NCBI RefSeq assembly: GCF_026342035.1
Contig: NZ_JAPENM010000006.1
Location: 248,001-312,000 of the forward strand
Length of the DNA: 64,000 nucleotides
Origin: Aldersonia sp. NBC_00410
Lineage (GTDB): Bacteria > Actinomycetota > Actinomycetes > Mycobacteriales > Mycobacteriaceae
Reading direction: 5' to 3'
Numbering within the stretch: position 1 is the first letter of the stretch; the number at the start of each line of letters is the position of its first letter. The translations under genes and the position numbers were made by a program. The notes beneath the pieces were generated by a model. That model did no database searches and was not told the origin of the DNA. It saw nothing but the letters and a program-made list of their open reading frames with translations. Shown piece by piece: positions 34,240-49,309 of the stretch.

Positions 34240-34312
34240 GGGGCTATGGCGCAGCTGGTAGCGCACCACACTGGCAGTGTGGGGGTCAGGGGTTCGAGTC
34301 CCCTTAGCTCCA
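34240..34312 (+). tRNA. tRNA-Ala (anticodon GGC)
   Basis: The acceptor arms GGGGCTA (34240-34246) and TAGCTCC (34305-34311) pair with one G-T wobble, the anticodon loop is CTGGCAG, and the T-loop GTTCGAG is standard. The discriminator is A34312 and CCA is not encoded. Copies of its 3' half recur at 40503 and 41738. Confidence 0.95.
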
Positions 34313-34434
34313 CCGAAACCGCAGGTCAGCGGGTTACGGCAAGATTCAACTAAGGGCGACGTCCCTATAGTGTCCCAAGCGGGTCGGATAATCGCTCCGA
34401 AATCCGGCGCAGGGCATCCCATTTCTGCAGGTCG
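34271..34434 (+). repeat. tRNA-Ala 3'-half repeat, copy 1 (native)
   Basis: The 3' half of tRNA-Ala plus its downstream flank (through CTGCAGGTCGG near 34434). About 85 bases from CTGGCAGTG to CTAAGGGC differ from copy 2 at only about three positions by eye, and weaker similarity continues further. Confidence 0.85.
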
Positions 34435-34491
34435 GGCGTCGACCGGTGCACGGCAACCAACACCGAAATGTGGGGGTCTGGGCCAACGTGA

Positions 34492-34833
34492 TTACTCGTC
34501 GCCGTGACTACCTTCGAGGCGTTTCGACGGAGCGGGAGCGATCTGTGTCTTGCTGCTTTGCAGGGATTGTGATCCGGTCACGGTAGGTTCCTTGGCGAAG
34601 ATTTCGTAGGGGGAGACTTCAGCAGTGGCATCGGGGCTCGAGACACCGAAGACGTGGAACCGCCCCGCCTCGCGGACGGCCTTCAGTCCGTCCTCGAACC
34701 CGCCGAGCGACCCGGTGGCCTCGATGACGACCCCCCATCCCTCCCCGCTGATCGAGTCCGGGGATATTTTCGGCGGCGCGCTGGGCACCGATTCTCGACG
34801 AGCCGTTTGCCTGCGGATTGAATTGCGTAGCAA
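34492..34833 (-). pseudogene. Fragment of a zinc-binding (MDR) dehydrogenase
   Basis: The translation contains WGVVIEATGSLGGFEDGL, VREAGRFHVFGVSSPDA and PYEIFAKEPTVTGSQS, the strand-helix order around the last part of an MDR alcohol dehydrogenase Rossmann fold. The N-terminal catalytic domain and zinc sites are missing, and both ends run into unrelated sequence. It lies just inside the repeat-bounded module. Confidence 0.75.
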
Positions 34834-34863
34834 TATCTCGACGAGGGTGCCGATCCCGAAAGG

Positions 34864-35259
34864 TCATGACCGGTATTCGTCCTCGGCTACGTGTTCGAGC
34901 CAGGTAACGACGCGGCCCTCGTTGTCGGCTTCCTGAATAGCGACGTGTGCCATGAATCGGTCGGGTGTCGCACCATGCCAGTGCTCTTCGCCCGGTTCGA
35001 TGTAGACGACGTCGCCTGGCCGGATCTCCTGGACTTCGCCGCCGCGCCGGGCCACGAGACCGACCCCGTCGGTCACGTACAACGTTTGGCCCTTGGGGTG
35101 GGTGTGCCAGGCGGTGCGGGCACCGGGTGTGAAGCGGACGTGTGCGCACCCAACCGCAGACTGATCATCGGGATCGCGGAGGCCGTCGATGTAGACGGCG
35201 CCGGTGAACCACTCCGGGGGTCCGGTGACGGTTCGACGGTCGGTTTTCGTGACCTTCAT
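34864..35259 (-). CDS. Small cupin-domain protein
   Basis: A 131-residue single-domain cupin. Cupin motif 1 is [14 protein letters not shown] (with His-x-His and Glu replaced by Gln) and motif 2 is [17 protein letters not shown]. The family binds a metal and includes mandelonitrile lyase-like and decarboxylase-like enzymes. AAAGGA before ATG 35259 supports this start rather than 35316. The upstream promoter region adjoins the MmyB-like regulator and both lie in the repeat-bounded module. Confidence 0.85.
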
Positions 35260-35411
35260 TTCCTTTACCAACTTTTCTCTGTGGCGCGCTGGGATGTCAA
35301 AGATGTTGTGATACAAACGAATACGTCGAGATCAGCCAGCAACCAGGGATTGGCAGGTTGATCGGCTTTCGGTGTCGTCGCTAGCGTTCGGCGATGCCGC
35401 CATCGTTGCGG

Positions 35412-36365
35412 TCAGGGCTCTTTTGTTTGTGTCGCGTTGGGTAGGTGATCCGCAGAACGCCCCGGTTCCCCCGATTGGGTCCCGGAGGCGACGATGTCCA
35501 GGGTGGGGTGCTGTGCGGTCCATGATGCGAGCAGTCGAAGTCGTTCGGCCGACGGGGAGCCGGGTTCAGCGGCGTATATCAGCATCACGTGGCCGGGTTC
35601 GGCGGTGAGCGCGAGTTCCTCGTAGGACAGTACGAGTTCACCGACGATCGGGTGGTGGAATCGTTTCGTGCCGGCGCCGTGGGTGCGGACGTTGTGTGCG
35701 GCCCACAGGGTACGGAAGGTCTCGCTGCAGGTGGATAGTTCGCCGACGAGGTCTTGGAGGGCCTTGTCGTGCGGGTCGCGGCCGGCTTCGGCGCGCATGA
35801 TGGCCACGCACATCTCCGCGAATCGCTCCCAGTCCGGGTAGAAGTCACGCGCGGCGGGGTCCAGGAACTGAAAGCGGGCCAGATTGGGGATCCGGCCGCC
35901 GTCGCCGATGACGGGTGAGTAGAAAGCGCGTCCGAGATCGTTTGTGGCGAGGAGGTTTTGGCGTTGATCGCGCACGAAGGCGATGGCATCGGTGATCGAC
36001 GCGAGTGCCCATTGCAAGCTGGGCCGAGGTGTTGCCGGCTTGGTTGCGCGGCGCCGGGCGCGGCCGCTCGCGGGGATACCGTCGGCGGCACGCGCAAGGT
36101 CGAGCAGATGTGCCTGCTCGGTGTCGTCGAGTTGCAGCGCCCGGGCGATGGCATCGAGCACCGATGCGGATGCGCCGGCGATCGCGCCGCGTTCGAGTTT
36201 GGCGTAGTACTCGACGCTGACGCCGGCGAGCGCGGCGACCTCGCTGCGTCGTAGTCCGGCCACGCGCCGGTTGGCGCCTGCGGTGATCCCGGCCGTGTCG
36301 GGGGTGATCCGGGCGCGGCGAGTCATCAAGAACTCGCGTACCTCGGCTCGGTTGTCCACACCCAC
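35412..36365 (-). CDS. Helix-turn-helix regulator of the MmyB-like family
   Basis: The N-terminal XRE domain (RRVAGLRRSEVAALAGVS, EYYAKLERG) is followed by the MmyB-like ligand-binding domain with RQNLLATNDLGRAFY, LARFQFLDPAARDFY and a C-terminal acidic part. These regulators often control an adjacent transporter or reductase; here the divergent efflux gene begins 91 bases away. The frame is open far upstream into the antisense of the efflux gene, so a GTG at 36359 or 36365 is taken as start. Confidence 0.9.
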   Translation of the reverse strand: MGVDNRAEVREFLMTRRARITPDTAGITAGANRRVAGLRRSEVAALAGVSVEYYAKLERGAIAGASASVLDAIARALQLDDTEQAHLLDLARAADGIPASGRARRRATKPATPRPSLQWALASITDAIAFVRDQRQNLLATNDLGRAFYSPVIGDGGRIPNLARFQFLDPAARDFYPDWERFAEMCVAIMRAEAGRDPHDKALQDLVGELSTCSETFRTLWAAHNVRTHGAGTKRFHHPIVGELVLSYEELALTAEPGHVMLIYAAEPGSPSAERLRLLASWTAQHPTLDIVASGTQSGEPGRSADHLPNATQTKEP

Positions 36366-36455
36366 GAGGTTAGGACGAACGCGCGGGGTGAGGGGTGCCC
36401 TAGTGGTACACCCCTTGTCAGGGACTCCCGCGCCCGCGAACGCCGGGACAGGCTT

Positions 36456-37709
36456 GTGTCCATGACTCCACCGACATCTCCGGCAAACGTGAGCCGCTCG
36501 CTTCCGACCCTGCTGCTGGTGTTGACGGTGTTCGGCCCGATTTCGATGGACCTGTACCTGCCCGCTCTGCCCGCGCTGAGTGTCGATCTGGGCGCGGTGA
36601 CGTCGGTCGCGCAACTGACGGTCACCGCCTGCCTCGTCGGCCTGGCTGCCGGGCAACTTGTTGCGGGACCGGTCTCGGATCGGTTCGGGCGGCGCGGTGT
36701 TCTCCTTGCCGGCACCGTTGCCTACATCGTCACGTCGGCGCTGTGCGCGGTCAGTCCGACCGTCGAGCTGCTGGTGCTCGCGCGGCTCGTGCAGGGCATC
36801 GCTGGTGGAGTGGGGATCGTCATCGCTCAAGCTGCAGGCCGTGACATCTACTCCGGGGGCGCACTGATCCGCTTCTACGGGCGGCTGACCGTGGTTGGCG
36901 GGTTTGCCGCCATCGTCGGACCACTGCTCGGCGGTCTTCTCAACACCATCACCGACTGGCGCGGCCTGTTCGCCTTTCTGGCCGCGATCGGCGCGGGCAT
37001 CCTTGTCACCACGTGCGTTGTGTTTCGCGAGACGCTTCCGCTTGGCCAACGTACTCGTGGCGGATTCGCCTACGCCGTGCGGGACTTCGGCTCGTTGCTC
37101 GCGGATCGGGTCTTCGTCGGCGCGATCCTCACTCAGGGTTTTCTGTACGCGGCGCTGTTCGCCTACCTGTCCGGGGCGACGTTTGTGTTCCAAGACATCT
37201 ACGGGCTGTCCGCGCAGCAATACGCGCTCGCATTCGGACTCAATTCGGCTGGGTTCATGACCTTCGGCTACCTCGCCGGACGTGCCTCGGAATCGTGGAG
37301 TGTTCCCGGCACACTGGCCGTCGGCGTCGTCTTCGCCGGCGTCGGCGCCGTAAGCCTGCTCACCTGCGGATGGGCGGGGGCGCCCCTGTGGGTGGTGATC
37401 GTCTCGTTTTTCGCCCTCGTCGGTGGCGTCGCAGTGTCTTCGCCTCCCGCCACCACACTCGCGCTCTCCGGGTATCCACAGTTGGCCGGAACCGCCTCGT
37501 CCTTGATGGGAATGGTGCGGTTCGGTTTGGGTGCTATCGCGGCGCCGCTCGTCGGGGTGGCCGGCGCCACCAGCATCCTTCCCCTCGGCGCGGTGACGAC
37601 CATCGCAGTCCTGCTCGCCGGTGCCACGGCCCTGGTCCTCGTCGACCGCTCGGCAACCACGACGCCGACCCAAGCCGTGCCACCGATTCCTGTGAAAGTC
37701 AATCAGTAA
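36456..37709 (+). CDS. Bcr/CflA-type MFS drug exporter
   Basis: A 12-helix exporter. FGPISMDLYLPALPAL in helix 1 and GPVSDRFGRRGVLLAG in loop 2-3 mark the Bcr/CflA subfamily, which exports antibiotics such as bicyclomycin and chloramphenicol. The divergent MmyB-type regulator probably controls it, and the alcohol dehydrogenase that follows 14 bases after the stop likely shares the transcript. GTG 36456 or ATG 36462 can start it. Confidence 0.92.
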   Translation: MSMTPPTSPANVSRSLPTLLLVLTVFGPISMDLYLPALPALSVDLGAVTSVAQLTVTACLVGLAAGQLVAGPVSDRFGRRGVLLAGTVAYIVTSALCAVSPTVELLVLARLVQGIAGGVGIVIAQAAGRDIYSGGALIRFYGRLTVVGGFAAIVGPLLGGLLNTITDWRGLFAFLAAIGAGILVTTCVVFRETLPLGQRTRGGFAYAVRDFGSLLADRVFVGAILTQGFLYAALFAYLSGATFVFQDIYGLSAQQYALAFGLNSAGFMTFGYLAGRASESWSVPGTLAVGVVFAGVGAVSLLTCGWAGAPLWVVIVSFFALVGGVAVSSPPATTLALSGYPQLAGTASSLMGMVRFGLGAIAAPLVGVAGATSILPLGAVTTIAVLLAGATALVLVDRSATTTPTQAVPPIPVKVNQ

Positions 37710-37723
37710 AGGAGAACACCACC

Positions 37724-38743
37724 ATGCGTGGAGTCGTCATGTACGCCCCCGGCGATGTCCGGGTCGAGGAACGGGAGAATCCGGCAATCGTCGAGCCCAC
37801 CGACGCGATCATCCGTGTCGCGGCATCCTGCATCTGCGGATCCGACCTCTGGCCGTATCGAGGTGCTGAAGAGGTCGACCACACCCCGATGGGCCACGAG
37901 TACGTCGGCGTCGTCACCGAGATCGGCGACGAGGTGACCAACGTCAAGGTCGGCGACTTCGTCGTTGGGTCGTTCTTCGCTTCCGACAACACGTGCGAGA
38001 TCTGCCAGGCCGGGTATCAGTCGCGGTGCGTACACGCCCATCCGATGGGTGCCATCGGCACCCAGTCCGAGTACGCCCGCATCCCGCTGGCAGACGGTAC
38101 TCTCGTCGCGACTCCGGGACAGCCCGACGCCGATCTGATTCCGTCGCTACTGGCGGCATCCGACGTGCTGGGCACCGGCTGGTTTGCCGCCGTCGCAGCC
38201 GAAGCCGGCCCCGGAAAGACCGTCGCGGTGGTCGGCGACGGCGCGGTGGGACTGCTTGCAATCCTGGCCGCCAAGGAACTCGGCGCGGAGCGGATCATAG
38301 CGATGAGCCGGCATGCCGACCGGCAAGCCCTCGCCCGTGAGTTTGGGGCCACCGACATAGTCGAGGAGCGCGGCGACGCCGGGGTCGCGAAAATCCAGGA
38401 GCTCACCAGTGGGCTCGGTGCGCACAGTGTCATCGAGGCAGTCGGCACTCAGGAGTCGATGATGCAGGCCATCAACGCGACACGTCCGGGCGGGCACGTC
38501 GGCTATGTGGGTGTCTCCCACGGGGTGTCCCTCGACGGGCTCGGGCTGTTCTTCTCCGGCGTGCACCTGCACGGCGGTCCGGCACCGGTGCGGCGGTTCC
38601 TGCCCGACTTGATCACGTTGATCTGGGATCGAAAGATCGACCCGGGCAAGGTGTTCGATCTGACCATCCCCCTCGACCAGGCACCCGCGGGTTACCGGGC
38701 CATGGACGAGCGTCGCGCCACAAAAGTCCTGCTCACCGTCTGA
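37724..38743 (+). CDS. Zinc-dependent alcohol dehydrogenase (MDR family)
   Basis: AAAGGAG precedes ATG 37724, so the much longer upstream frame is not used. The N-terminal catalytic domain has CICGSD (catalytic zinc Cys38), GHEYVGVV and a second Cys-rich lobe (NTCEICQAGYQSRC) for structural zinc. The nucleotide-binding Rossmann motif is VVGDGAVGLLA. The substrate is unknown. The coupling to an exporter suggests detoxification of an alcohol or aldehyde. Confidence 0.93.
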   Translation: MRGVVMYAPGDVRVEERENPAIVEPTDAIIRVAASCICGSDLWPYRGAEEVDHTPMGHEYVGVVTEIGDEVTNVKVGDFVVGSFFASDNTCEICQAGYQSRCVHAHPMGAIGTQSEYARIPLADGTLVATPGQPDADLIPSLLAASDVLGTGWFAAVAAEAGPGKTVAVVGDGAVGLLAILAAKELGAERIIAMSRHADRQALAREFGATDIVEERGDAGVAKIQELTSGLGAHSVIEAVGTQESMMQAINATRPGGHVGYVGVSHGVSLDGLGLFFSGVHLHGGPAPVRRFLPDLITLIWDRKIDPGKVFDLTIPLDQAPAGYRAMDERRATKVLLTV

Positions 38744-38870
38744 CCCGGCCGGCGCCTGGGTGCACGCGAAACCCAGCCGCCGCCAAAGGGTTACCGATGA
38801 CCATCGACCCGAAGCACTTTCCGGGTGGCCACGTACGAGAAGCGATGCTCGCACTCGACGGACCGAACCG

Positions 38871-39584
38871 ATGACTCGATGGATTCACATTGGCATCAGT
38901 ACCAGGGTGCTTGTCGCGCTACTCGCCGGGTGCGGCACCATGAGCGGCAGCGAAGTATCGACAACCGCAACGAGCGCCGCCGCTGCCTCCGCCGCGACCG
39001 CGGACGCTGGTGAACCGATTGTCGGGACGGTCGTGCGGTTCACCTCCGACCGGACCAGGGTCGAGGTCACCATCGGCGACGACTCGACAGCTGTTCGCGA
39101 TTTCTTCGGTCTCCCCGACAAGTTGCTGCAGACGGGGACCGGAGTCGCGTCTACCGGTGCGCAGGCGCGTTTCCGTGAGCTCACGGCGAGGCTGGTCGGT
39201 GTGTTGAGAGGCCTCGGAATCGATGCGCGGATCGGCGCGGTTCCCGGCGAGTACTGTCCCGGCGGGTGGTCCATCAATGGTGCCGGCCGAGTGAAGCTCG
39301 CCGGAACCGCGCAACGCATCATCTCTGGCGCTTGCCTTTTCGGCGCCGAGCTCGTCGTCACCGACCCGGATCCGATCCGGGCCGTGCTGGCCGACGTCAA
39401 TGCGGCACTCGACGTGGAATTCGACCCCCGCACCGCGTCGGTGCTCACCGACCTCAACCCGGCTGTCACGCTTGACAAAACGCGGGCGGGCATCCGCACT
39501 GCTCTGGGAGCGGTACACGAGGTGACCGCAGGCCCTGACGTCATGGCGGAGGCAATCAAGGCGCGTGAATCGCACGCACCATGA
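38871..39584 (+). CDS. Chimeric ORF: cyclophilin-like lipoprotein N-terminus fused to a lipoate-ligase C-terminus
   Basis: From ATG 38871 the first 80 or so residues are a lipoprotein (hydrophobic leader, lipobox LAGC, Ser/Ala linker) followed by GTVVRFTSDRTRVEVTIGDD and AVRDF, the opening of a secreted cyclophilin-like domain. From about residue 85 the sequence changes to the C-terminal part of lipoate/biotin ligase relatives (RFRELTARLVGVLRGLG, PGEYCPGG, RVKLAGTAQRIISGA). Neither part is complete: the cyclophilin-like domain lacks its second half and the ligase lacks its catalytic N-terminal domain. A recombination-made, probably non-functional gene is the simplest reading. Confidence 0.7.
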   Translation: MTRWIHIGISTRVLVALLAGCGTMSGSEVSTTATSAAAASAATADAGEPIVGTVVRFTSDRTRVEVTIGDDSTAVRDFFGLPDKLLQTGTGVASTGAQARFRELTARLVGVLRGLGIDARIGAVPGEYCPGGWSINGAGRVKLAGTAQRIISGACLFGAELVVTDPDPIRAVLADVNAALDVEFDPRTASVLTDLNPAVTLDKTRAGIRTALGAVHEVTAGPDVMAEAIKARESHAP

Positions 39585-39863
39585 CAGGCGCGGCGAGCGC
39601 TCGCAGATTATGTGGGGAGCTGACCGAACGTCTTGGGAGCGTGTAAGGCGTGTAGCGCGTCCAGTCCTCGATCCCGTCGTGTCCTTCGTGACAACGTCGA
39701 CGAAATCGACTGCGGTGCAGCTGTCATCGTCGAAGGAGCTAGGAACCGCCTGCCGATTGCCACGAACTTTGTCCGGCCGCGTGAACCGTCATCACCGTGT
39801 CCGTTACCAACCACCGCAGGAGCGTCGCGGTTCAGCGCAGTGCGGGGGGTGGCGGCGCGTCGG

Positions 39864-40154
39864 TCAGCAAGGGAGTGATCCGACGATGCACGCCGCGAGG
39901 CCCAACGGCATTGTGATGACAACGGGCAGTTGGATCGTCAGCGGTGCTGGTCCACTGCACAGCCACAGTGCCTCGGTGAACATCAACGTGACGATGGTCG
40001 AAATGAGGCCCGTCAGTACGCCGCAGACCGCGCCGGTGTTGTTGAACCGGCGCCAGTTCGGGCTGAGCAGCAGGCTCGGCAGGTGTGCGCTGCCGGCGAC
40101 CATGAACGCCACGCCCATGAAGTAGGTGATATTGGTGGTGTCGCCGGTGGCCAT
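39864..40154 (-). pseudogene. C-terminal fragment of a sodium/solute (acetate) symporter
   Basis: From ATG 40154 the 96-residue frame contains a helix MGVAFMVAGSAHLPSLLLS, then PNWRRFNNTGAVCGVLTGLIS and VVITMPLGLAACIVGS. That order (SANLPALLxSLFWKRF, GAVWG, IPLG) is the end of ActP/SSS symporters. The transport core is absent, so the start codon is probably a chance internal Met and the gene is dead. Confidence 0.65.
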
Positions 40155-40502
40155 GGTTTCTCGAAGACCCTCCGACCTGACGTTCCGACCGATCGAACTG
40201 CGGCGTGCGCACAGCGCTTCGCCACGATCCCTCAAAGGTTCGCCTGTGCACCTGGAGACAACGGTTGTGCGGCATCGATCGGGCACGCCGCCGCTGCTAT
40301 CGCCCGCGTGGCGGGAGAATGGTGGAATCGGTTTATGCGCCGGCCGGGGGAGGGAAAAGTGCAGTGTCCCAAGAAAGTCCCCGATGCCGCCGAAACGCTG
40401 CGAAGCAGGTGAGACGGCGCGAAACGTGATCTGCCCGCTGAGCTGGGCACATCGGTATGCAGCGAAACAGGCCCGGAACAGCCGAGATTGGCTGCATACA
40501 TT
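40155..40502. other. No gene seen; leads into tRNA repeat copy 2
   Basis: No convincing coding pattern. The last 30 bases (TTGGCTGCATACATTC near 40487-40502) recur before copy 3 at about 41722-41737, so the repeat unit of copies 2 and 3 extends upstream of the tRNA-like part. Confidence 0.5.
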
Positions 40503-40668
40503 CTGGCAGTGTGGGGGTCAGGGGTTCGAGGTCCCCTTAGCTCCACCGAAACCGCAGGCCAGCGGGGTACGGCAAGATTCAACTAAGGGCAGTGCCCCTA
40601 TAGTGGGCCAAGAGCGTCGCGTGACGGGCCCGAAATGGTCCTCGGGGAGTTCATTTTCTGCAGGTCGG
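40503..40668 (+). repeat. tRNA-Ala 3'-half repeat, copy 2
   Basis: CTGGCAGTGTGGGGGTCAGG through CTAAGGGC copies positions 34271-34357 with an extra G in the T-arm and about two substitutions; weaker similarity runs on to CTGCAGGTCGG near 40668. The 5' half of the tRNA is absent, so it is not a functional tRNA. Confidence 0.85.
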
Positions 40669-40847
40669 CTGTGGGTCGGCGCGCGAGTCATGGTCGTCAT
40701 ATGAACGACGCGCGGATACGCCGTCGGTGTCGGCGACGAATGCCATGGCGGCTTTCCCCCGCGTGATCCGCACGACCGCGGAGTTGATCGCAGCGGCCGT
40801 TTGGAACACGACGTTGGTGGCGGTGGATTCCGGTCTGCTGTGTTGAT

Positions 40848-41495
40848 TCAGTCGGCGGCGGCGGTGGTGCCGTCGACGGGGATGGCGCCGTCTACGGCCG
40901 TCCGAAAGTCGACGAGCGCCCGCTCGAGATGGTCCGGACTGGTGACGACCACGGCGCCGGTGGCGTGCCGAGCGGTCAGGAGTTTGCTCGTGAACGTGGC
41001 GTTTTCCACGGTCGAGCGGGAGGCGCCTTCCTCGGTGATGCGCTGCGGGGACACGCCATTGGCGACGAGCCAGCGTCGCATCGCGGCGGCTTCGGTGACA
41101 CCGGAGCGGGGAACGCCACCGGTAACGATGATTGGGGCGGTCGGGTACGTGCGCGCCAGAAGCAGGGCCGCTTGCAGTCGCGATTCTAGGACCGGTCGGA
41201 TCGATCCGTCGGGTAATAGTCCGGCACCGAGCACGACGATATGGGTGCCGGTCGGATTCAGGGTGAGCATCAGCGGCGTCTGGGATGAATTTATGTGCAG
41301 CCCGGTGCACAGTCTGATCAGTTGCGGGGTGGTGGATCGGCAGCCACCGACCGTGGATTGGACTGCCTCGGAGTCCGTGGTCGGCGCGACCGTCGGTTGG
41401 CTGTGCGCAACCCCGGCCCCGGCGGCGGTCAGTGTGATGGCGACGACGGCGGCGGCGGTGGCGGCGGTCGAGAACTTGCGAATGAACATCGGCAT
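40848..41495 (-). CDS. Secreted DUF218 (YdcF/SanA/ElyC-like) protein
   Basis: A signal peptide (residues 1-32, FSTAATAAAVVAITLTAAG) is followed by a DUF218 domain: HIVVLGAGLLPDG, SRLQAALLLARTYP, IIVTGG and GVTEAAAMRRWLVANGV, then VVTSPDHLERA. DUF218 proteins such as SanA and ElyC influence envelope and peptidoglycan processes; a nucleophile or metal role is not settled. It is the only intact gene between repeat copies 2 and 3. Confidence 0.9.
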   Translation of the reverse strand: MPMFIRKFSTAATAAAVVAITLTAAGAGVAHSQPTVAPTTDSEAVQSTVGGCRSTTPQLIRLCTGLHINSSQTPLMLTLNPTGTHIVVLGAGLLPDGSIRPVLESRLQAALLLARTYPTAPIIVTGGVPRSGVTEAAAMRRWLVANGVSPQRITEEGASRSTVENATFTSKLLTARHATGAVVVTSPDHLERALVDFRTAVDGAIPVDGTTAAAD

Positions 41496-41737
41496 TGGTG
41501 TCCAGGGTTTCTGCGCTCGAGGGTTTTGGGGTTGTTGGGCGGGCAGTGGATGGTGTAGTTCCAGTCGGTGGGGTTGGCACCGGTGAACCGGATGTTTGCC
41601 GCGTTATCGAGTCAGTTGACCAGTTCGTTACCGGATTGCGAGTTTGGGTTGCCGAATGGCTCGCCAGTGCCGCGCCTGTAAGCCCGACGACACACGCGCC
41701 AGGCACCGCGGAACAGGTGACGTTGGCTGCATACACT

Positions 41738-41850
41738 CCGGCAGCTCGGGCCAGGGTCCGAGTCCCCTTGGCTCCCCGGAAACCGCAGGTCATCGGATTG
41801 CAGAAAGACTCAACTAGGGGCAGTGGCCTGTAGCGGGATGTGAGAGTCGG
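41738..41850 (+). repeat. tRNA-Ala 3'-half repeat, copy 3 (diverged)
   Basis: The copy reads CCGGCAGCTCGGGCCAGGG, then AGTCCCCTTGGCTCC, GGAAACCGCAGGTCA and CTCAACTA. It has many more changes than copy 2 and so looks older. It keeps the upstream TTGGCTGCATACA that copy 2 has. Confidence 0.75.
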
Positions 41851-41930
41851 ATGCTCGCGCTCGCACCACACAAGGGTGGTTCGAAATTTGCCGTATTGCA
41901 GCGAAGCGGTCAGCCCAGCGGCTTCGACCC

Positions 41931-42245
41931 CTAGTCTCGGTGTCGCTGCTCGCGTCGGTATTGCGATGCGCTGCGACGTGCCGACGCCTTCATGACGAAC
42001 GTAGGTGGTAGGCCGAGCCGCAGCTGTTGCAACATCGTCGGGATGTCCTCGCAGTGCCAGGCCTCAGCGAGTTTGCCGTCGGTGACCTTGAAGATCTCTT
42101 GGCCACCCATCGTGACCGGCCTGCCGGTGGGTGGAATACCGAACAGCTCGATTGGGCCGGTGTTGGATGCGGTCATCGGCCATCGTCTGGTCACGTATCC
42201 TTCGTCGGCAAACACGACGTCTTTGTCGAAGTGCATGTCCAGCAA
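41931..42245 (-). pseudogene. N-terminally truncated SnoaL-like (NTF2-fold) protein
   Basis: The frame contains FDKDVVFADEGYVTRRW, GRPVTMGGQEIFKVTDGKL and AEAWHCEDIPTMLQQL, the second half of a SnoaL/polyketide-cyclase fold. Upstream in the same frame an in-frame stop follows after about 15 codons, without the first helix and without a plausible start. It is therefore a fragment. Basic residues at the C-terminus look unusual for the family. Confidence 0.6.
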
Positions 42246-42527
42246 TGCTTTTCGGATCTGGTCGGCCGCCCATGGTCACCGGCTGCCGCGTTCGACTGCC
42301 CCGGAATCGGTGTGTGATCGACCAAGCCGTCGGCGAGGATTTCGGGCTTGCACTGGACCCATTCGGCCAGTGCCGGATGCGGCCCGCCGAATCCGTCCCG
42401 CTCGCACGTCGGCTCAGACCTGCCAGGCCGGTTCGCGGGGTGGTCCTCGCTCAATCGTTCGTCGGGATGAGCGGAAGCGTGCAGAGGCGGTACCCGCCGC
42501 GGGGTGCGGGTACCGCCCGTATCGCGA

Positions 42528-42743
42528 TCAGGCGGCCGGTACAGCCGCCAGCCCGTGAGCAATGCCGAGCACTGCGTGCAGCGCGGCGCTTGTGATGTCG
42601 GGCTGCGTCGCCGCAGTACCGGCGACCGAGAAGATGAGGATCAGTATCTTCCAGAGCTGTTTCGTGGTCAGTGTGCAGCGGAACGATGCGGAGCTTCCCT
42701 CCACGCTGAACGTGACTTTGCCCTTGCGTGCTTTTCGGGTCAT
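42528..42743 (-). CDS. Small membrane-associated protein, unknown
   Basis: A 71-residue protein with a basic N-terminus, a possible beta unit (KGKVTFSVEGSSASFRCTL) and a hydrophobic segment around QLWKILILIFSVAGTAA. GGAGGG eight bases before the ATG makes it a real gene candidate. No family is recognised. Confidence 0.5.
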   Translation of the reverse strand: MTRKARKGKVTFSVEGSSASFRCTLTTKQLWKILILIFSVAGTAATQPDITSAALHAVLGIAHGLAAVPAA

Positions 42744-43040
42744 GTCGGCCCTCCGATGAGATCGGAAGGTGCGATGTTTCTAGATATCAACGTGCCCTCG
42801 TAGGAGGGCGTCCATACAACCCAGTTCGCGCCTTCGGGTGTGAACTGCTGTTGTGGCCGAGCCGTCGCCGGACCGACCGGATGAAACCGGACGCCGACCC
42901 CGCCGGACATTCGGTCTCCGTAGGCCCCGGTGGGCCTATCTCCAGTAGGCCACGCGCTGCCACTGAAGTCGAGAGTGCATTCGCCGGACTGTCAGCGTGT
43001 ATGCGCCGAAACGGGGTGCAAGCGGAACAGCCGAGCGCCT

Positions 43041-43531
43041 GCTCAGCCTGCGAAGTCGGGGCACAGGTTCGTGGTCGCTGCGCTGACGAACAAGGTGCCC
43101 TGGTTGAAGTGGTAGGTCTGTTCGACCGCGCTCATCTCGTCGAGGACCGAGGTTCCGTGGCGGAGGTGGTCGCACGTGGCGTACCCGGCCGCGACCATCT
43201 CGTCGGCGGTCTTACCGGGCAACCCGGCGTTGTTGATGCTGATCTCGTCGAGAAACGATGCGGGGGTTGCCGATGCCGTGCCGGCGCCGATGATGCCGGC
43301 GCTGAGGCCGGCGACGGTGAGGGCGAAGGTGGCGGCGATGGTGTTGCGGCGAATGCGGGTGGTGAACACGTTGTGGTCCTTTGCTCGGTCGCGATGATCG
43401 GGGTTGGGATGTTCTGCACACCGTTTCTCGGTATGGCTCTAACATTGCCCCGTCACGTGGGCCGCGGATACCCACCCTGGGGGTGCGGAGACCGCCCTGC
43501 GGGTGGCTCATTGCCGACACCCTGGATGCGG
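43041..43531. repeat. Direct repeat A (about 490 bp) left of the arsenic module
   Basis: The segment is repeated at 46994-47484 with a constant offset of 3953 bases and no gaps by eye; mismatches are few and mostly in the first 100 bases and at the very ends. Both copies contain a DUF732 gene and its promoter region. Confidence 0.9.
43043..43369 (-). CDS. Secreted DUF732 family protein, copy A
   Basis: A 108-residue exported protein with a signal peptide (MFTTRIRRNTIAATFALTV, then GAGTASATP) and a DUF732 domain with GYATCDHL and a Cys near the C-terminus (TNLCPDF). Copy B at 46996 differs at only a few residues (EQTYHF against EHTYNF). GTG start with AAAGGA seven bases upstream. Confidence 0.88.
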   Translation of the reverse strand: MFTTRIRRNTIAATFALTVAGLSAGIIGAGTASATPASFLDEISINNAGLPGKTADEMVAAGYATCDHLRHGTSVLDEMSAVEQTYHFNQGTLFVSAATTNLCPDFAG

Positions 43532-43650
43532 GTTCTGGGGGCCAGGCTCGCTCCCCGGGCGTGCACGACATAGCTGATCCGGCCGCGCCATCCATGCAAG
43601 GCGAAGGCCGAGGCGTATTGCGCGATCGATTCCGATCTGCCACCGTCCGG

Positions 43651-44010
43651 TCAGGTGCAGCAGTTCGGGTCGAGTACGACGCACAGCGCGCTGAGGGCGT
43701 CGCGGCGGGGCTGGTGGTAGACGTTCATGCCGCGGCGCTCGGACGTCAGCAGCCCAGCGTTGCGCAGCTGGCCCAGGTGGTGGCTGACGGTGGACTCCGA
43801 CAGGGTCAGGGCGGTGGCGAGATCGCCAGTGGTCAACTCCTCAGCGGGGGTGGTGAGCAGCATCGACATCAGCTTCACCCGCGTCGGGTCGGCGATCGCC
43901 TTGAGCCGCAGCGCCACTTCCAGCGCGGCGCCGTCATCGATCGGACCCGCCGCGACCGGGGCGCAGCAAACGGGCGCAGACATATCGACCACCGGCAGCG
44001 TCTTCGGCAT
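43651..44010 (-). CDS. arsR: ArsR-family arsenic-responsive repressor
   Basis: A 119-residue winged-helix repressor. LKAIADPTRVKLMSML and TLSESTVSHHLGQLRNAGL are the DNA-binding part. Two cysteine pairs stand out: C15-C16 in PVCCAP at the N-terminus, the position of the As(III) site of corynebacterial ArsR, and C117-C118 at the C-terminus. The third ligand of that site (Cys55) is not present, so the terminal pair may take part instead. Start at ATG 44010, in frame with a longer open frame to 44160. Divergent from arsI, with a palindrome between. Confidence 0.93.
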   Translation of the reverse strand: MPKTLPVVDMSAPVCCAPVAAGPIDDGAALEVALRLKAIADPTRVKLMSMLLTTPAEELTTGDLATALTLSESTVSHHLGQLRNAGLLTSERRGMNVYHQPRRDALSALCVVLDPNCCT

Positions 44011-44077
44011 GAAGTCAGCATAGCTGATCTTTGACTTATATCGAAAAGGTGGCATCATGGGCCACGGCAGATAGTTC

Positions 44078-44087
44078 GACATATGTC
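44078..44087. promoter_or_regulatory. Candidate ArsR operator
   Basis: A perfect 10-base palindrome, GACATATGTC, lies 21 bases before the arsI start in the 97-base space between divergent arsR and arsI. A related TTGACTTATATCGAA stands 45 bases to the left. ArsR sites are usually AT-rich dyads in this position. Confidence 0.5.
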
Positions 44088-44107
44088 TCACAGGTGGAGG
44101 TCCGGTC

Positions 44108-44521
44108 ATGTCCCGTGTGCAGCTCGCGCTCAACGTCGATGACCTCGACGCGTCGATCACGTTCTATTCCAAGCTATTCGGTGTCGAACCGGCCAAGGTC
44201 AAGGACGGGTATGCGAACTTCGCGATTGCCGAACCCCCGTTGAAACTGGTGCTGATCGAAAACCCCAGCAAAGGGGGCTCGATCAACCATCTCGGTGTCG
44301 AGGTCGAGTCCAGCGACACCGTGCAGGCCGAGATCACCCGGCTCACCGACGCCGGGTTATTCACCCAGGAGCAGATCAACACGACATGTTGTTTCGCCAC
44401 CCAGGACAAAGTCTGGGTCACCGGTCCGGCCGGTGAGCAGTGGGAGGTCTACACCGTGCTCGCCGACGCCGACACCTTCGGCACCTCTCCGGAGTCGCTC
44501 GCCGCGTCACCGTGCTGTTGA
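44108..44521 (+). CDS. arsI: ArsI/CadI-type vicinal-oxygen-chelate protein
   Basis: A 137-residue glyoxalase/VOC-fold protein, opening SRVQLALNVDDLDASITFYS. Positions C94-C95 in NTTCCFATQDK form the pair that binds methylarsenite in ArsI C-As lyases; the His in INHLGVEV and Glu in QWEVYTV are the expected metal ligands. The family was first called cadmium-induced protein CadI. In this operon, a role in breaking down methylated arsenicals is the best guess. Confidence 0.88.
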   Translation: MSRVQLALNVDDLDASITFYSKLFGVEPAKVKDGYANFAIAEPPLKLVLIENPSKGGSINHLGVEVESSDTVQAEITRLTDAGLFTQEQINTTCCFATQDKVWVTGPAGEQWEVYTVLADADTFGTSPESLAASPCC

Positions 44522-45621
44522 GCACCGGCACCGATCCCCGCGGCGTGGTCGGGAAACTCCCCGTCCTGGACCGGTTGCTGCCGGTATGGATCGGCGTCGC
44601 AATGGCCGCCGGTCTGCTGCTCGGAGGCGTGATTCCGGGCCTGGGTGACGTGCTCGGCGCCGTGGAGATCGACGGCATCTCCCTGCCGATCGCGCTGGGC
44701 CTGCTGATCATGATGTATCCGGTGCTGGCGAAGGTTCGCTACGACCGTCTCGACGCTGTCACCGGCGACCGCAAACTCCTGATCGGCTCGCTGGTCCTGA
44801 ACTGGATCGTCGGTCCAGCGCTGATGTTCACACTGGCCTGGCTGTTTCTGGCCGACCTGCCCGAATACCGCACCGGACTGATCATCGTCGGACTGGCCCG
44901 TTGCATCGCGATGGTGATCATCTGGAACGACCTCGCCTGCGGCGACCGGGAAGCTGCCGCGGTGCTGGTGGCGATCAACTCGGTGTTCCAGGTGCTCATG
45001 TTCGGCGTCCTGGGCTGGTTCTACCTCTCGGTGCTGCCGGGCTGGCTCGGCCTCGAGCAGACCACGATCGACACCTCGCCGTGGCAGATCGCCAAATCGG
45101 TGCTGATCTTCCTCGGCATCCCTCTTCTCGCGGGCTACCTCACCCGGCGATACGGGGAGAAGGCGAAGGGCCGGGACTGGTACGAGTCGAGGTTCCTGCC
45201 GAGGATCGGTCCGTGGGCGCTGTACGGGCTGCTGTTCACGATCGTGATTCTCTTTGCGCTGCAAGGTGAGCAGATCACCTCGAACCCGGTTGACGTGGTC
45301 CGGATCGCGATCCCGCTGCTGGCGTACTTCGCGGTCATGTGGGGCGGCGGCTACCTGCTCGGCATCACCCTTCGCCTCGGATACGCGCGCACCACGACTC
45401 TCGCGTTCACCGCCGCGGGCAACAACTTCGAACTCGCCATCGCCGTCGCGATCGCCACCTACGGTGCCACCTCCGGGCAGGCGCTCGCCGGTGTCGTCGG
45501 TCCACTGATCGAGGTCCCCGTCCTCGTGGCCCTGGTCTACGTATCCCTCGCGCTTCGCCGTCGGCTGTTCCCCAGCGAAGCGGCCGAATCCGCCACCCCG
45601 ACAAGGAGTTTCCGCCGATGA
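44512..45621 (+). CDS. acr3: ACR3 arsenite efflux transporter
   Basis: Ten hydrophobic segments and the ACR3 signatures: GLARCIAMVIIWNDLACGD, with the essential Cys in GLARC, and the C-terminal FTAAGNNFELAIAVAIA. It exports As(III) at the cell membrane. The GTG at 44512 overlaps the end of arsI by 10 bases and gives 369 residues, the usual length. ArsC follows with a 4-base overlap. Confidence 0.95.
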   Translation: MLLSTGTDPRGVVGKLPVLDRLLPVWIGVAMAAGLLLGGVIPGLGDVLGAVEIDGISLPIALGLLIMMYPVLAKVRYDRLDAVTGDRKLLIGSLVLNWIVGPALMFTLAWLFLADLPEYRTGLIIVGLARCIAMVIIWNDLACGDREAAAVLVAINSVFQVLMFGVLGWFYLSVLPGWLGLEQTTIDTSPWQIAKSVLIFLGIPLLAGYLTRRYGEKAKGRDWYESRFLPRIGPWALYGLLFTIVILFALQGEQITSNPVDVVRIAIPLLAYFAVMWGGGYLLGITLRLGYARTTTLAFTAAGNNFELAIAVAIATYGATSGQALAGVVGPLIEVPVLVALVYVSLALRRRLFPSEAAESATPTRSFRR

Positions 45622-46064
45622 CGCACGTCCCGAGCGTCCTGTTCGTCTGCGTGCACAACGCCGGCCGCTCGCAGATGGCCGCCGGATTGCTTGCCCACCT
45701 CGCCGGCGACCGCATCGAGGTTCGATCCGCCGGCTCATCGCCGGCCGGCGAGGTCAACCCGGCTGCGGTCACCGTCATGGCCGAACTCGGCATCGATATC
45801 TCCACGCAGACACCGAAAATCCTCACCACCAACTCCGTCGAGGCCTCCGACGTGGTGATCACCATGGGCTGTGGCGACACCTGCCCCGTGTTCCCCGGCA
45901 AGCGCTACCGCGACTGGATCCTCGACGACCCGGCGGGGCAAGGCGTCGATGCGGTGCGCGCGATCCGTGACGAGATCAGAGACAAGGTGGAGGCATTGAT
46001 CACCGAACTGGCCCAGGGCCCAGTGCGTCGAATCGCAAGCCGTGAGCCTGACACTCGTGGTTAG
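45618..46064 (+). CDS. arsC: Arsenate reductase (LMW-phosphatase type, ArsC)
   Basis: Reduces arsenate to arsenite for export by ACR3. The P-loop is VCVHNAGRSQMA with the nucleophile C11; two further Cys (C85 and C89 in MGCGDTCPVF) fit the thiol relay, which in actinobacteria may use mycothiol. The C-terminal DPAGQGVDAVR follows the family pattern. AAGGAG precedes ATG 45618; the start overlaps the acr3 stop. Confidence 0.95.
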   Translation: MTHVPSVLFVCVHNAGRSQMAAGLLAHLAGDRIEVRSAGSSPAGEVNPAAVTVMAELGIDISTQTPKILTTNSVEASDVVITMGCGDTCPVFPGKRYRDWILDDPAGQGVDAVRAIRDEIRDKVEALITELAQGPVRRIASREPDTRG

Positions 46065-46111
46065 GATTCGAGTCAGGGAGATGACCGGAAACGTGCGCGG
46101 AGGAATTCGCT

Positions 46112-46573
46112 ATGCCCCACACAGTGGACTTCAAGACCGTATCGACAGTCGGCCTGGAAACATCACCGGTCGCATCGGCGCTCGCCGGTCTACGAGCGAA
46201 CGAGGCCCGATATTTCAAGAACAAGTACGACCACGTCTTCACGGTGGAGCCTGCCGAGGACGCTGAGTCGACCATCAAGTGGGTGAGCCGAATCCTGGAG
46301 GACGAGCGCGGCATCGTCATCGCCTCCCGCCCACTCGAGGCCACGGCATTCGAGGTAGCGGGCATACGTTTCGCCTACGTCTTCTACGAGGACGGTCTGT
46401 CGATCAACGTCATGTACTCGGTCGACGAGTCCGGCAAGCGGGCGGTTGGGTTCAAGCTCTCCGAGGAGATGGAAATCCCCGCGGAACTTTCCTCGTTCAA
46501 GTTCGCGAGGCAGAAGTCGAAGCTGGCGGGCACGATTCGCGGGTCCTACTTCGTCATCAAGAGTCAGTACTGA
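46112..46573 (+). CDS. Unknown protein in the arsenic module
   Basis: A 153-residue soluble protein with a long alternating pattern (IKWVSRILEDERGIVIAS, RFAYVFYEDGLSINVMYSVDE, FKFARQKSKLAGTIRG). It looks like an alpha/beta domain, possibly DNA- or peptide-binding. No family is recognised and no Cys residues suggest arsenic chemistry. It begins 47 bases after arsC and may be part of the same transcript or an unrelated passenger. Confidence 0.55.
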   Translation: MPHTVDFKTVSTVGLETSPVASALAGLRANEARYFKNKYDHVFTVEPAEDAESTIKWVSRILEDERGIVIASRPLEATAFEVAGIRFAYVFYEDGLSINVMYSVDESGKRAVGFKLSEEMEIPAELSSFKFARQKSKLAGTIRGSYFVIKSQY

Positions 46574-46993
46574 CCTCGAATTGCAGAGCCCGAGCGCGGT
46601 ATTAGGGAGCGGTTCGGCGACCGTTCACGCCTGGACAGGCGTAGGCTCGAACCACGGATCCACAGCAGACCAAGGTCGGACCGGAAGAAAAGATTCCTCC
46701 TCTCGGTTGTGGCGCCCAGCACGAGTACTAGGCACCCACGCGAAGCGAGGCCCATCAACTGGGCACAGCGCGGTGGGCCTGCGTCGGGGCCGGTGACATG
46801 GCTTCCGACGCCGAGGCCACATTTCACGGCGCAAACATGCACGCTTGGTAACCAAAGTGGTTCATGCTTCGGACGGCTCTCCTTTTAATTGGGAGCGCCG
46901 TCCGACTCGCGTTTGCCGACGTCGCGGGCGAGGGTAGCGATACGGCTCAGCCCGACTGCGGCATGACCTTCACGCTTTTCGCCGGTGGCTCCC
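46574..46993. other. Intergenic region before repeat B
   Basis: No coding pattern. It contains the inverted repeat listed separately and no tRNA-like sequence. Confidence 0.5.
46871..46903. terminator. Terminator-like hairpin
   Basis: Arms GGACGGC-CTCC and GGGAG-GCCGTCC pair with one bulge on each side around a TTTTAATT loop. There is no T-run after it. It lies after the last gene of the arsenic module. Confidence 0.55.
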
Positions 46994-47484
46994 GCTCAGC
47001 CTGCGAAGTCGGGGCACAGGTTCGTCGTCGCTGCGCTGACGAACAAGGTGCCCTGATTGAAGTTGTAGGTGTGCTCGACCGCGCTCATCTCGTCGAGGAC
47101 CGAGGTTCCGTGGCGGAGGTGGTCGCACGTGGCGTACCCGGCCGCCACCATCTCGTCGGCGGTCTTGCCGGGCAACCCGGCGTTGTTGATGCTGATCTCG
47201 TCGAGAAACGATGCGGGGGTTGCCGATGCCGTGCCGGCGCCGATGATGCCGGCGCTGAGGCCGGCGACGGTGAGGGCGAAGGTGGCGGCGATGGTGTTGC
47301 GGCGAATGCGGGTGGTGAACACGTTGTGGTCCTTTGCTCGGTCGCGATGATCGGGGTTGGAATGTTCTGCACACCGTTTCTCGGTATGGCTCAAACATTG
47401 CCCCGTCACGTGGGCCGCGGATACCCACCCTGGGGGTGTGGAGACCGCCCTGCGGGTGGCGCATTGCCGACACCCTGGATGCGG
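46994..47484. repeat. Direct repeat B (about 490 bp) right of the arsenic module
   Basis: Gap-free copy of 43041-43531 (offset 3953). The two repeats point in the same direction, so recombination between them would remove the arsenic genes and leave one DUF732 gene. Confidence 0.9.
46996..47322 (-). CDS. Secreted DUF732 family protein, copy B
   Basis: Almost identical to copy A, with the same signal peptide and the same GTG start and AAAGGA element. Residue changes are confined to the region around the third helix (VEHTYNF). Two copies that stay this similar at the DNA level indicate a recent duplication or gene conversion. Confidence 0.88.
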   Translation of the reverse strand: MFTTRIRRNTIAATFALTVAGLSAGIIGAGTASATPASFLDEISINNAGLPGKTADEMVAAGYATCDHLRHGTSVLDEMSAVEHTYNFNQGTLFVSAATTNLCPDFAG

Positions 47485-47751
47485 CTCGTGTCGTCGTGGG
47501 CGACGGCGCGCTAGGTACTCGGCGAGTTCGCGGTTCCCGCGAGGCGGTGGTGTCACATCCCGCTGTGGACCAAGTGATACGAAAAATCGGTAGCTCGGGT
47601 CATCTCGTTCGGGTGCGTAGTGCCGATCGGTCATTGGAGTAGGCAACTACTCGCGATTCTTGCTCTCGGGTCGGCGACAGTTGGACGGCGGAAACCGACC
47701 AGCCGACGTGATTGTTTCGACGCATGCTCGGCGAACAGATCCGAGGACGAC

Positions 47752-49290
47752 ATGACATCCGTATCAACCGACGAGGTCGCGGTCCGGCCCGTACCCGCAC
47801 CAATCGACGCGGCGCCGACTCGACGCTGGTGGGCGCTGGGCGTGATAGCGATGGCCCAGCTCATGGTGGTTCTCGATGGAACCATCGTGACTATCGCGTT
47901 GCCCTATGCGCAGGATGACCTGGCTATCTCCGACGCCAACCGGCAATGGGCGTTGACCTCCTACGCGCTGATGTTCGGTGGACTGCTGTTGCTCGGGGGA
48001 CGGCTCGCCGACTACCGCGGCCGTCGCCGCATGTTCCTCATCGGCTTGGGCGGGTTCGCGGCATCATCGGCCTTGGCCGGGCTCGCCTGGGACGGCATGT
48101 CGTTTTTCGCCGGCCGAGCCCTGCAGGGCGTGTTCGCCGCCGTCCTGGCGCCGGCCGCGCTGGCGCTCATCACCGTCACGTTCGTCGAGCACCGCGAACG
48201 TGCCCGTGCCTTCGCGGTGTACGCGGCGGTGTCTGCGGGCGGCGCGGCGATTGGCCTGATCGCCGGCGGTGCGCTCACCGAGTACGTCTCCTGGCGCTGG
48301 ACGCTGCTGATCAATACCCCGATCGCCGTCGTCGCCGCGATCGGCGGCCTGCTCCTGGTGATCCGCGATCGGCCCGCACAGGTACGTGGCAGCTACGATC
48401 TGCCCGGTGCGGTTACGGTGGCCCTCGGCTTGGTCAGCCTGGTCTACGGTTTCACTCGCGCCGCCGAAGCCGGGTGGGGCGCGGCATCCACGGTGATGTT
48501 CTTCGGGATTGCGGCCGTCCTGTTGACGATGTTTGTCGTCATCGAGTCACGCGTCACGAATCCGCTGCTGCCCCTGCACATCCCCGGGGAGATCAACCGC
48601 GGCGGCGCCTTTCTGACGGCGTTCGTCATCCCGATCCCGCTCTTCGCGATGTTCCTGTTCCTGAGCTACTACTTCCAGAACACGCTGGGCTATACGCCAC
48701 TGCGCACCGGAGTGTTGTTCCTGCCTTTCCCGCTCGCGATCGTGGTATCCGCCGGCTTTGCGAGCTCGCTGTTGCCGCGGGTCGGGCCACGACCGTTAAT
48801 GGCGGTCGGAAGCGGTTTGGGTGCAATAGGTCTGGTCTATCTGGCACAGCTGCAGCCCGGATCGACGTGGCTGAGTCTCGTACTGCCGAGTCAGGTACTC
48901 ATCGCCCTGGGGCTGGGCCTGGTCTTCGTTCCCATGCAGGCAGTCGCGCTGCACCGCATCGAGGAGCGCGACGCCGGAGTTGCCAGCGCACTGCTCAACA
49001 CGGCCCAACAGATTGGCGGTGCCGTGGGACTGGCTCTGCTGAGCACTGTCGTCGCGCAGGTCTTCGCCCGTCATCCGGGCAGTGCGATCGCGCTCAATCC
49101 TGCCACTGGGCAACCGGTCCCGATCGATCCGAACGGATTCACCGCCGCGAACATCCACAGCTACGACGTCGCCTTCTACTGGGGTGCCGGATTCCTGCTG
49201 CTCGCGATGGTGGTGAGTCTGGTGACGGTACGGCTGGGGCGAAACGGCCTCGGCGACGAGACCCAGAACGCCGCACATCTCGTGGCCTAG
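47752..49290 (+). CDS. DHA2-family (EmrB/QacA) MFS drug exporter
   Basis: A 512-residue, 14-helix exporter. MVVLDGTIVTIALPYAQDDL is the helix 1 motif of the 14-TM drug/H+ antiporters and GGRLADYRGRRRMFLIG the loop 2-3 motif; NTAQQIGGAVGLALL lies in a later helix. ATG 47752 begins a sensible N-terminus, although the frame is open to 47620. No adjacent regulator on the same strand. The substrate is unknown. Confidence 0.9.
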   Translation: MTSVSTDEVAVRPVPAPIDAAPTRRWWALGVIAMAQLMVVLDGTIVTIALPYAQDDLAISDANRQWALTSYALMFGGLLLLGGRLADYRGRRRMFLIGLGGFAASSALAGLAWDGMSFFAGRALQGVFAAVLAPAALALITVTFVEHRERARAFAVYAAVSAGGAAIGLIAGGALTEYVSWRWTLLINTPIAVVAAIGGLLLVIRDRPAQVRGSYDLPGAVTVALGLVSLVYGFTRAAEAGWGAASTVMFFGIAAVLLTMFVVIESRVTNPLLPLHIPGEINRGGAFLTAFVIPIPLFAMFLFLSYYFQNTLGYTPLRTGVLFLPFPLAIVVSAGFASSLLPRVGPRPLMAVGSGLGAIGLVYLAQLQPGSTWLSLVLPSQVLIALGLGLVFVPMQAVALHRIEERDAGVASALLNTAQQIGGAVGLALLSTVVAQVFARHPGSAIALNPATGQPVPIDPNGFTAANIHSYDVAFYWGAGFLLLAMVVSLVTVRLGRNGLGDETQNAAHLVA

Positions 49291-49309
49291 GGTGCGAGTC
49301 TCAGGAAGT

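Follow-up and report, generated by a model that had tools for sequence, protein, structure and literature searches.

The DNA analyzed here is a 64-kb window on contig C8 of the draft genome of Aldersonia sp. NBC_00410. Positions are those of the window unless a contig is named, and the genome was searched as a whole, as 5.7 Mb of draft contigs. The sole tRNA gene of the window, identified by both ARAGORN and Rfam, is an intact tRNA-Ala(GGC) at 34240-34314 on the plus strand, with the same sequence as at the corresponding locus of a congener (L039). Two further copies of its 3' half follow downstream and bound two cargo segments of 6.2 kb (segment 1) and 1.2 kb (segment 2), both without an integrase. 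These repeats most probably are attachment (att) sites of integrative elements that entered the tRNA gene stepwise and then decayed, and the elements appear to belong to a family that also forms a long stack behind tRNA-Val(CAC) in the same genome.

Three Copies of a tRNA-Ala 3' Half

All three copies lie on the plus strand and start at the anticodon loop (CTGGCAG, but CCGGCAG in copy 3), with spacings of 6233 and 1231 between successive copies. Copy 1 comprises the intact tRNA, whose 3' half from the anticodon loop to the tRNA end (34271-34313) forms the putative att core (attL), and a P'-like downstream arm (34313-34435). In copies 2 and 3, the tRNA half is enclosed by an upstream and a downstream arm. 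Copy 2, the putative internal att, has a P-like upstream arm (40303-40502), a core (40503-40546) with no substitution at 43 positions and one inserted base relative to the tRNA, and a downstream arm (40546-40668) that is 77% identical to that of copy 1 over 123 nt. Copy 3 has a short upstream arm (41709-41737; 85% identical to 40474-40500 over 27 nt), a decayed core (41738-41777) with nine substitutions in 40 positions plus gaps, and a downstream arm (41778-41837) that resembles those of copy 2 (78% over 60 nt) and copy 1 (84% over 43 nt; E about 1e-6).

When the whole genome was searched with 34271-34400, 22 matches were obtained at E ≤ 10, among which copy 2 (40503-40619, 91%, E 1e-39) and copy 3 (41754-41821, 84%, E 3e-14) were second and third best. 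With such values a chance origin of copies 2 and 3 is excluded, and the direct-repeat series at 34271, 40503 and 41738 that had been proposed in a preliminary description of this DNA is borne out. The same description had confined the repeat to the tRNA 3' half, which proved incorrect, as the shared sequence extends 43-123 nt beyond the tRNA end. It had also taken the similarity of copies 2 and 3 upstream of the core as a sign of separate events. Beyond that, the similar stretch is part of an att arm that recurs at element ends at tRNA-Val.

The distribution of differences along the copies is informative. Against the unchanged core of copy 2, the next 80 nt differ from copy 1 at 15 positions (Fisher p 0.001). 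A core that was kept while its flank diverged fits an element that needs a match to the tRNA, whereas for a copy made in place no such constraint would be expected. In copy 3 this contrast is absent (p 0.40), which suits a copy that is old and idle. Crossover within tRNA genes takes place at the anticodon loop or at sites further 3' (PMC4383910), and copies that start at the anticodon loop therefore fit the action of a tyrosine integrase. A candidate sequence marker of the att sites, the motif AAACCGCAGGTCA, was weakened as a specific signal because it occurs at 24 genome sites with at most one mismatch (control 3); 11 of the 24 are att sites, and those viewed among the other 13 resemble coding or unrelated sequence by eye.

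Related Element Ends behind tRNA-Val

The upstream arm of copy 2 links this locus to another. A tRNA-free query covering it (40290-40502) matches C10:114573-114379 (E 2.8e-28), C10:66085-65892 (E 2.2e-23) and C10:165836-165711 (E 8.7e-16), plus places elsewhere, and nhmmer gave 1.6e-22 for 40303-40599. These three places are the ends of elements stacked behind tRNA-Val(CAC). The upstream arm of copy 3 matches C10:185042-185012 (E 1.3e-4). Conversely, a profile of the three window copies detects tRNA-Ala-type att remnants a few hundred bases before the tRNA-Val core in five of the 11 units of the stack (E 2.4e-15 to 5e-4), and another such remnant lies on contig C18 at 63965, without a nearby Val unit. 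Judged by these sequence similarities, the window and the tRNA-Val stack appear to share one element family.

The native tRNA-Val(CAC) is located at C10:282285-282357, and the 11 att units, all in its orientation, are distributed over 252 kb (C10:30125-282357; loci L090-L102). They lie at C10 184629, 165476, 153349, 113990, 104922, 102743, 83184, 74116, 65545, 51904 and 30125, with spacings of 2179 to 97698 bases, and partial units are found at C10 50893, 32969 and 3659. Each unit consists of an upstream arm of about 240 nt, a 42-nt tRNA-Val half and a downstream arm; in units 104922, 74116 and 30125 the arm match begins only at position 49-56 of 239. The tRNA half is identical to the native gene in nine of the 11 units and differs by one and two bases in the remaining two. 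When seven of the units were aligned, pairwise identity averaged 99.3% for the cores, 86% for the upstream arms and 59% for the downstream arms. Because the arms differ while the cores are nearly identical, the units look like separate arrivals rather than copies made in place.

The stack also contains a recent duplicate, in which C10 104473-114007 and 73667-83201 are identical except at two of 9535 bases. On the tRNA side, the identity stops about 20 nt from the crossover, and at its other edge it continues about 450 nt past the next core. As only one edge fits, this duplicate was rejected as clean proof of copying by an integrase, and the overshoot of the second edge makes homologous recombination a possible cause.

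The element adjacent to tRNA-Val, here called the head element, is 97.7 kb long. Its tyrosine integrase gene (PF00589) ends about 0.3 kb from the tRNA, and it further carries a MobF relaxase, a TraG/D-type coupling protein and defence genes that include a type I restriction system. Thus, it has the features of integrative and conjugative elements (ICEs) or integrative and mobilizable elements for which it was inspected, namely an integrase beside att, a relaxase and a coupling protein. The integrase is not of the integron type (TIGR02249, 43 bits against an NCBIfam cut-off of 265). The deeper part of the stack contains two integrase relics, one of 27 aa (89% identity) and one of 47 aa (45%). 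The cargo at C10 30-184 kb is mostly metabolic among the first 25 families listed, for a scan of 98 of the 105 called proteins; five of the seven proteins left out are second copies in the 9.5-kb duplicate. On one tRNA-Val element (L056:13221-15955, C10), what by eye is a GroEL-like open reading frame (ORF) has a long extra C-terminal part, and the ORF beside it resembles a papain-type protease.

The stack may be longer than contig C10 reveals. The last 880 bases of C18 are identical to the beginning of C10 and have no other match in the set, and C18 carries further partial Val units in the same orientation. If the two contigs are joined, as this overlap suggests, the stack would span about 383 kb. 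Apart from the main stack, a Val-type unit made of part of the arm and the core is present in plus orientation at C20:58587-58784.

Val-type units also occur in the congener Aldersonia kunmingensis (eight matches at E ≤ 1e-3, of which two comprise arm and core and two the arm only). The Ala-type arm was not found there, and the Ala-type end therefore seems lineage-specific. Across 251 family genomes, the present one included and with two candidates scored per genome, only the two Aldersonia carry the Val arm among the matches listed; in the remaining genomes, the listed matches cover the tRNA half and the first bases after it. Genome contigs scanned for an exact pattern of the Val arm gave no match, and no published account of this tRNA-Val array was found in the literature searched. 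Two features of the system are unusual: how long the stack at tRNA-Val is, and that some element ends bear both tRNA-Ala and tRNA-Val att sites. The genome probably has a third occupied site at a transfer-messenger RNA (tmRNA) gene, because a tyrosine integrase gene lies directly behind it (C8:208513-210094, L061).

The tRNA-Ala Locus in Relatives

In A. kunmingensis DSM 45001 (G001), the same upstream genes lead to a bare tRNA-Ala. A strong hairpin (-34.1 kcal/mol) comes directly after it, and a second tRNA-Ala copy with arms was not seen at that locus. A terminator-like hairpin occupies this position in most relatives, where the present genome has the downstream arm of copy 1. Among 30 distinct 60-nt sequences following tRNA-Ala (the present genome included, and one genome giving two), 25 have folding energies of -20 kcal/mol or below; the present sequence reaches -17.0, and four others are also weaker than -20. 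A second set, which overlaps with the first in organisms, consists of 28 relatives' loci with the upstream gene. The tRNA pattern was found in 26 of these, and 25 of the 26 fold at -28 to -47 kcal/mol, the exception having 94 nt before its contig end.

In none of the 28 loci do the cargo genes of the window occur in order, with 94 bases to 9.8 kb available behind the tRNA. At E ≤ 1e-10 the cargo has six single matches there, to dehydrogenases or exporters at 30-35% identity. The preliminary description had named relatives with the same gene order and a single tRNA copy as the finding that would point to local duplication, and none was seen among these loci.

A tyrosine integrase lies directly behind tRNA-Ala in the relatives G008, G009 and G031, and further copies of the 3' half are present in G026, G015 and G032. 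In G026 (L051:1612-2709) and G032 (L053:60-1800), segments of 1.1 and 1.6 kb lie between tRNA-Ala 3' halves, with no integrase seen in them. These segments share a different upstream arm of about 110 nt, come from two other genera and represent two of 401 family genomes. In Rhodococcus marinonascens, a 26-nt fragment of the tRNA-Ala 3' end lies 1.9 kb behind the native gene (L158:12848) and is followed by CCGAAATCGCGGCAGGTC, which resembles the downstream arm of the window. Five relatives (L164, L173, L178, L179 and L182) have a second complete tRNA-Ala gene 0.15-0.18 kb away.

Cargo Segments and the Outer Edge

Pfam assignments agree with the cargo of both segments as first described. Segment 1 encodes a cupin protein (34864-35316, minus strand, PF07883), an MmyB-type helix-turn-helix regulator (35412-36362, minus, PF17765), a Bcr/CflA-type major facilitator superfamily exporter (36456-37709, plus, PF07690, with TIGR00710 over its cut-off), a Zn-dependent dehydrogenase (37724-38743, plus, PF08240/PF00107) and an ORF without a Pfam match (38760-39584, plus). 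Gene relics lie near its two ends, one a C-terminal fragment of a Zn-dehydrogenase gene (34492-34833, minus, PF00107 positions 55-116 of 129) and the other a C-terminal fragment of a sodium:solute symporter gene (39864-40286, minus, PF00474 positions 364-406 of 406, 20.2 bits and thus below the cut-off of 22.8). Segment 2 holds a DUF218 protein (40848-41495, minus, PF02698). In a plasmid collection, the eight matches listed for 34320-41900 cover 25-26% of it at 69-70% identity and come from Streptomyces and Kitasatospora.

The absence of an integrase from the cargo, as originally claimed, withstood several searches. A tblastn comparison of 11 integrase queries with 34300-49320 gave only scattered short matches (best E 0.010), and a relic inside the window was accordingly rejected. 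Profile searches of the whole genome with PF00589 and PF00239 had no match within 34300-49320 at E ≤ 0.001. Of the eight genome matches to PF00589 (seven over the cut-off), one lies on the window contig (C8:209483), some 72 kb ahead of tRNA-Ala and behind tmRNA; PF00239 also has eight, two of which are inside the window and outside the island.

Copy 3 is trailed by an element arm rather than by chromosomal flank with a hairpin such as relatives have, and therefore at least one older element once lay beyond it. For the same reason, copy 3 was ruled out as the outermost boundary (attR), and the empty site that had been predicted, with 34312 joined to the sequence after 41850, was wrong. Position 41850 is not the outer edge of the island, which lies further on. 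The stretch that follows (41838-49308) is non-syntenic with the congener, whose match resumes in inverted orientation at 49309, and may represent a third segment; no further Ala-type att was detected in the window at E < 1, so no distal att was found for it. An arsenic-resistance cluster is located in this stretch (43651-46064), with ArsR, ArsI/CadI and ACR3 over NCBIfam cut-offs and an arsenate-reductase-like protein below them. It is flanked by a 497-bp direct repeat of 97% identity around DUF732 genes (43035-43531 and 46988-47484), and recombination between these repeats could allow loss of the cluster.

Origin of the Repeats

We consider it probable, at roughly 0.85, that the repeats are att sites left by integrative elements whose tyrosine integrase directs them to the anticodon loop of tRNA genes, and that the island arose by stepwise insertion and decay. 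Each element would carry an att composed of an upstream arm, a tRNA 3' half and a downstream arm. On insertion at tRNA-Ala, the gene would be rebuilt with the 3' half of the element, the downstream arm of the element would come to lie behind it (copy 1), and the old 3' half would be displaced to a position behind an upstream arm (copies 2 and 3). Three or more successive events would be needed, with the oldest element left only as the arm behind copy 3, then the 1.2-kb remnant with the DUF218 gene, and then the 6.2-kb remnant with the exporter and dehydrogenase. The two segments resemble cis-mobilizable elements (CIMEs), because integrase and transfer genes were lost or never present. The integrase, MobF relaxase and coupling protein of the tRNA-Val head element could serve the remaining elements. 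In the most likely history, an ICE-like family would have entered tRNA genes serially and shed its integrase and transfer genes; tRNA-Val would have kept a better-equipped head element, and at tRNA-Ala none would remain and the copies would decay. The anatomy of the repeats, the arm homology between the two loci, the bare tRNA-Ala site of the congener and the negative integrase searches of the island are direct observations, from which we infer the chemistry, the order of events, the number of elements lost and a role of the tRNA-Val integrase or a relative at tRNA-Ala. Stepwise integration with decay of older copies, already favored in the preliminary description, remains the best reading, given the contrast between core and flank in copy 2 and the decayed state of copy 3.

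Several observations weigh against this history. Neither an integrase nor a recognizable relic of one remains in the island, and the tRNA-Val integrase or a relative would have to have acted at tRNA-Ala. A search of the genome itself for the displaced chromosomal flank did not recover it (best match E 7e-6, 76% over 74 nt, contig C1). The upstream arm of copy 3 is weak when taken alone (E 0.02-0.03 for its similarity to copy 2), and the G+C content of the island (0.650) is near that of the upstream flank (0.673). The sole congener compared is rearranged just behind tRNA-Ala, where a hydrolase gene is inverted, and therefore offers an imperfect empty site. The sequences behind tRNA-Ala in the integrase-bearing loci of relatives still fold (-21.9 kcal/mol in G008, -11.8 in G009 and -38.2 in G031). 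Since G031 and G008 combine an integrase with a hairpin, loss of the hairpin is no strict sign of an occupied tRNA-Ala.

Phages offer another source for such segments, because tRNA-Ala is a common attB of actinophages and remnants of temperate phages could account for the cargo. At E ≤ 1, 531 phage records match the 3' region of tRNA-Ala, 345 of them named for Mycobacterium and 94 for Gordonia by the first word of the name, and a tyrosine integrase gene adjoins the match in phages Violac and TPA4 and in the M. abscessus prophage prophiGD12-2. Moreover, the 20 matches listed run 13-22 nt past the tRNA end, so part of the downstream arm also occurs outside this element family, which is a further point to be set against an origin from it. 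These data show that phage integrases use tRNA-Ala and that phages, too, possess the start of the arm. Against a phage origin, no phage record covers 80% of a 150-nt query and four exact arm patterns had no match in viral contigs. The 98 tRNA-Val array proteins gave 50 PHROGs families, and the 25 listed include no phage structural gene; the head element at tRNA-Val, moreover, encodes a relaxase and a coupling protein. Prophage remnants are thus a less likely origin, and we regard them as improbable.

Another candidate process is local duplication, in which slippage or unequal crossing over copied the tRNA 3' half with its downstream sequence and the intervening genes are ordinary chromosomal ones. 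Three copies within 7.5 kb and the closely spaced whole-gene duplicates of five relatives would suit this process. Unlike those duplicates, the copies described here begin only at the anticodon loop, without the 5' half of the tRNA. Furthermore, the core of copy 2 stayed unchanged while its flank diverged, the upstream arm of copies 2 and 3 has no counterpart at the native gene but is homologous to the ends of elements at other places, and the intervening genes were not encountered in order in the 28 relatives' loci. Local duplication was therefore rejected as very improbable.

A more elaborate version of stepwise integration can also be envisioned. The single tyrosine integrase beside tRNA-Val might maintain an integron-like store of at least 11, and with the adjoining contig probably more, integrase-less but recombination-competent cassettes with interchangeable metabolic and defence cargo, some of which, by virtue of a nested tRNA-Ala site, would seed a second locus, the window. 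This proposal is speculative, and we hold it to be doubtful.

Comparison with Known Systems

tRNA-anchored stacking is a known route by which bacteria gather genes, and the Islander catalog of such islands provides a first measure (PMC4383910). As Islander requires, an intact tDNA is followed downstream by a 3' fragment in the same orientation, but the integrase gene that Islander demands inside each island was not found. The two segments differ with respect to its length range of 2-200 kb, with the 6.2-kb segment inside and the 1.2-kb segment below it. Methods that require an integrase per island would overlook most of both loci. Catalogs seldom include long stacks at a single tRNA gene. The Islander table lists 125 tandems of two or more and four of three or more for 3919 islands. 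Here, about a dozen elements are lined up with a single intact integrase.

Among actinomycete ICEs (AICEs), the Frankia element Fean6303 has three repeats at tRNA-Arg that extend past the tRNA end, and it excises in two sizes (PMC3218068). It shares with the window the three direct repeats past a tRNA 3' end and the nested excision units. AICEs differ in having integrase, replication and translocation genes, and no integrase, replication or FtsK-like translocase gene was seen among the window cargo proteins scanned. The additive island of Methylopumilus resembles the window in its recurring tRNA 3' fragments and flexible metabolic cargo (PMC10872708). Its repeat is shorter, comprising the last 20 bp of tRNA-Lys, and arms are not described in the available portion of that account.

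The ssrA islands of Dehalococcoides offer another parallel, in which more than a dozen repeats occur and a conserved motif of 15 bp precedes the repeat (PMC3146451). As in Aldersonia, many tandem islands with metabolic cargo follow a single RNA gene; copies of the 3' end of that gene, with a conserved motif upstream, delimit the islands, and some of these lack integration genes. The Dehalococcoides islands, however, use a serine recombinase and 16 of 31 carry an integration module, whereas Aldersonia has one tyrosine integrase for the tRNA-Val array, a crossover placed in the anticodon loop and a single element family at both tRNA genes. Due to the nested att sites that tie this family to both genes, how an integrase lineage switches its tRNA target becomes testable.

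A further parallel is with the CIMEs, which a review defines as elements that have lost their integration and transfer genes but keep their att sites (PMC5704250); the original work on their tandem accretion concerned Streptococcus thermophilus. Both window segments are bounded by att sites of a related mobile element, as their arms are shared with the element ends at tRNA-Val, and they lack integration and transfer genes, the latter sought only through Pfam matches of the cargo proteins. Tandem accretion of CIMEs and ICEs likewise lines up integrase-less, att-bounded elements at one gene end, and the tRNA-Val stack is similarly headed by a mobile element with an integrase and a relaxase. The Aldersonia row contains more elements than the accessible part of that account describes. 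The window thus most probably holds a decayed outpost of an ICE/CIME-type accretion family, formed by a mechanism of a known kind.

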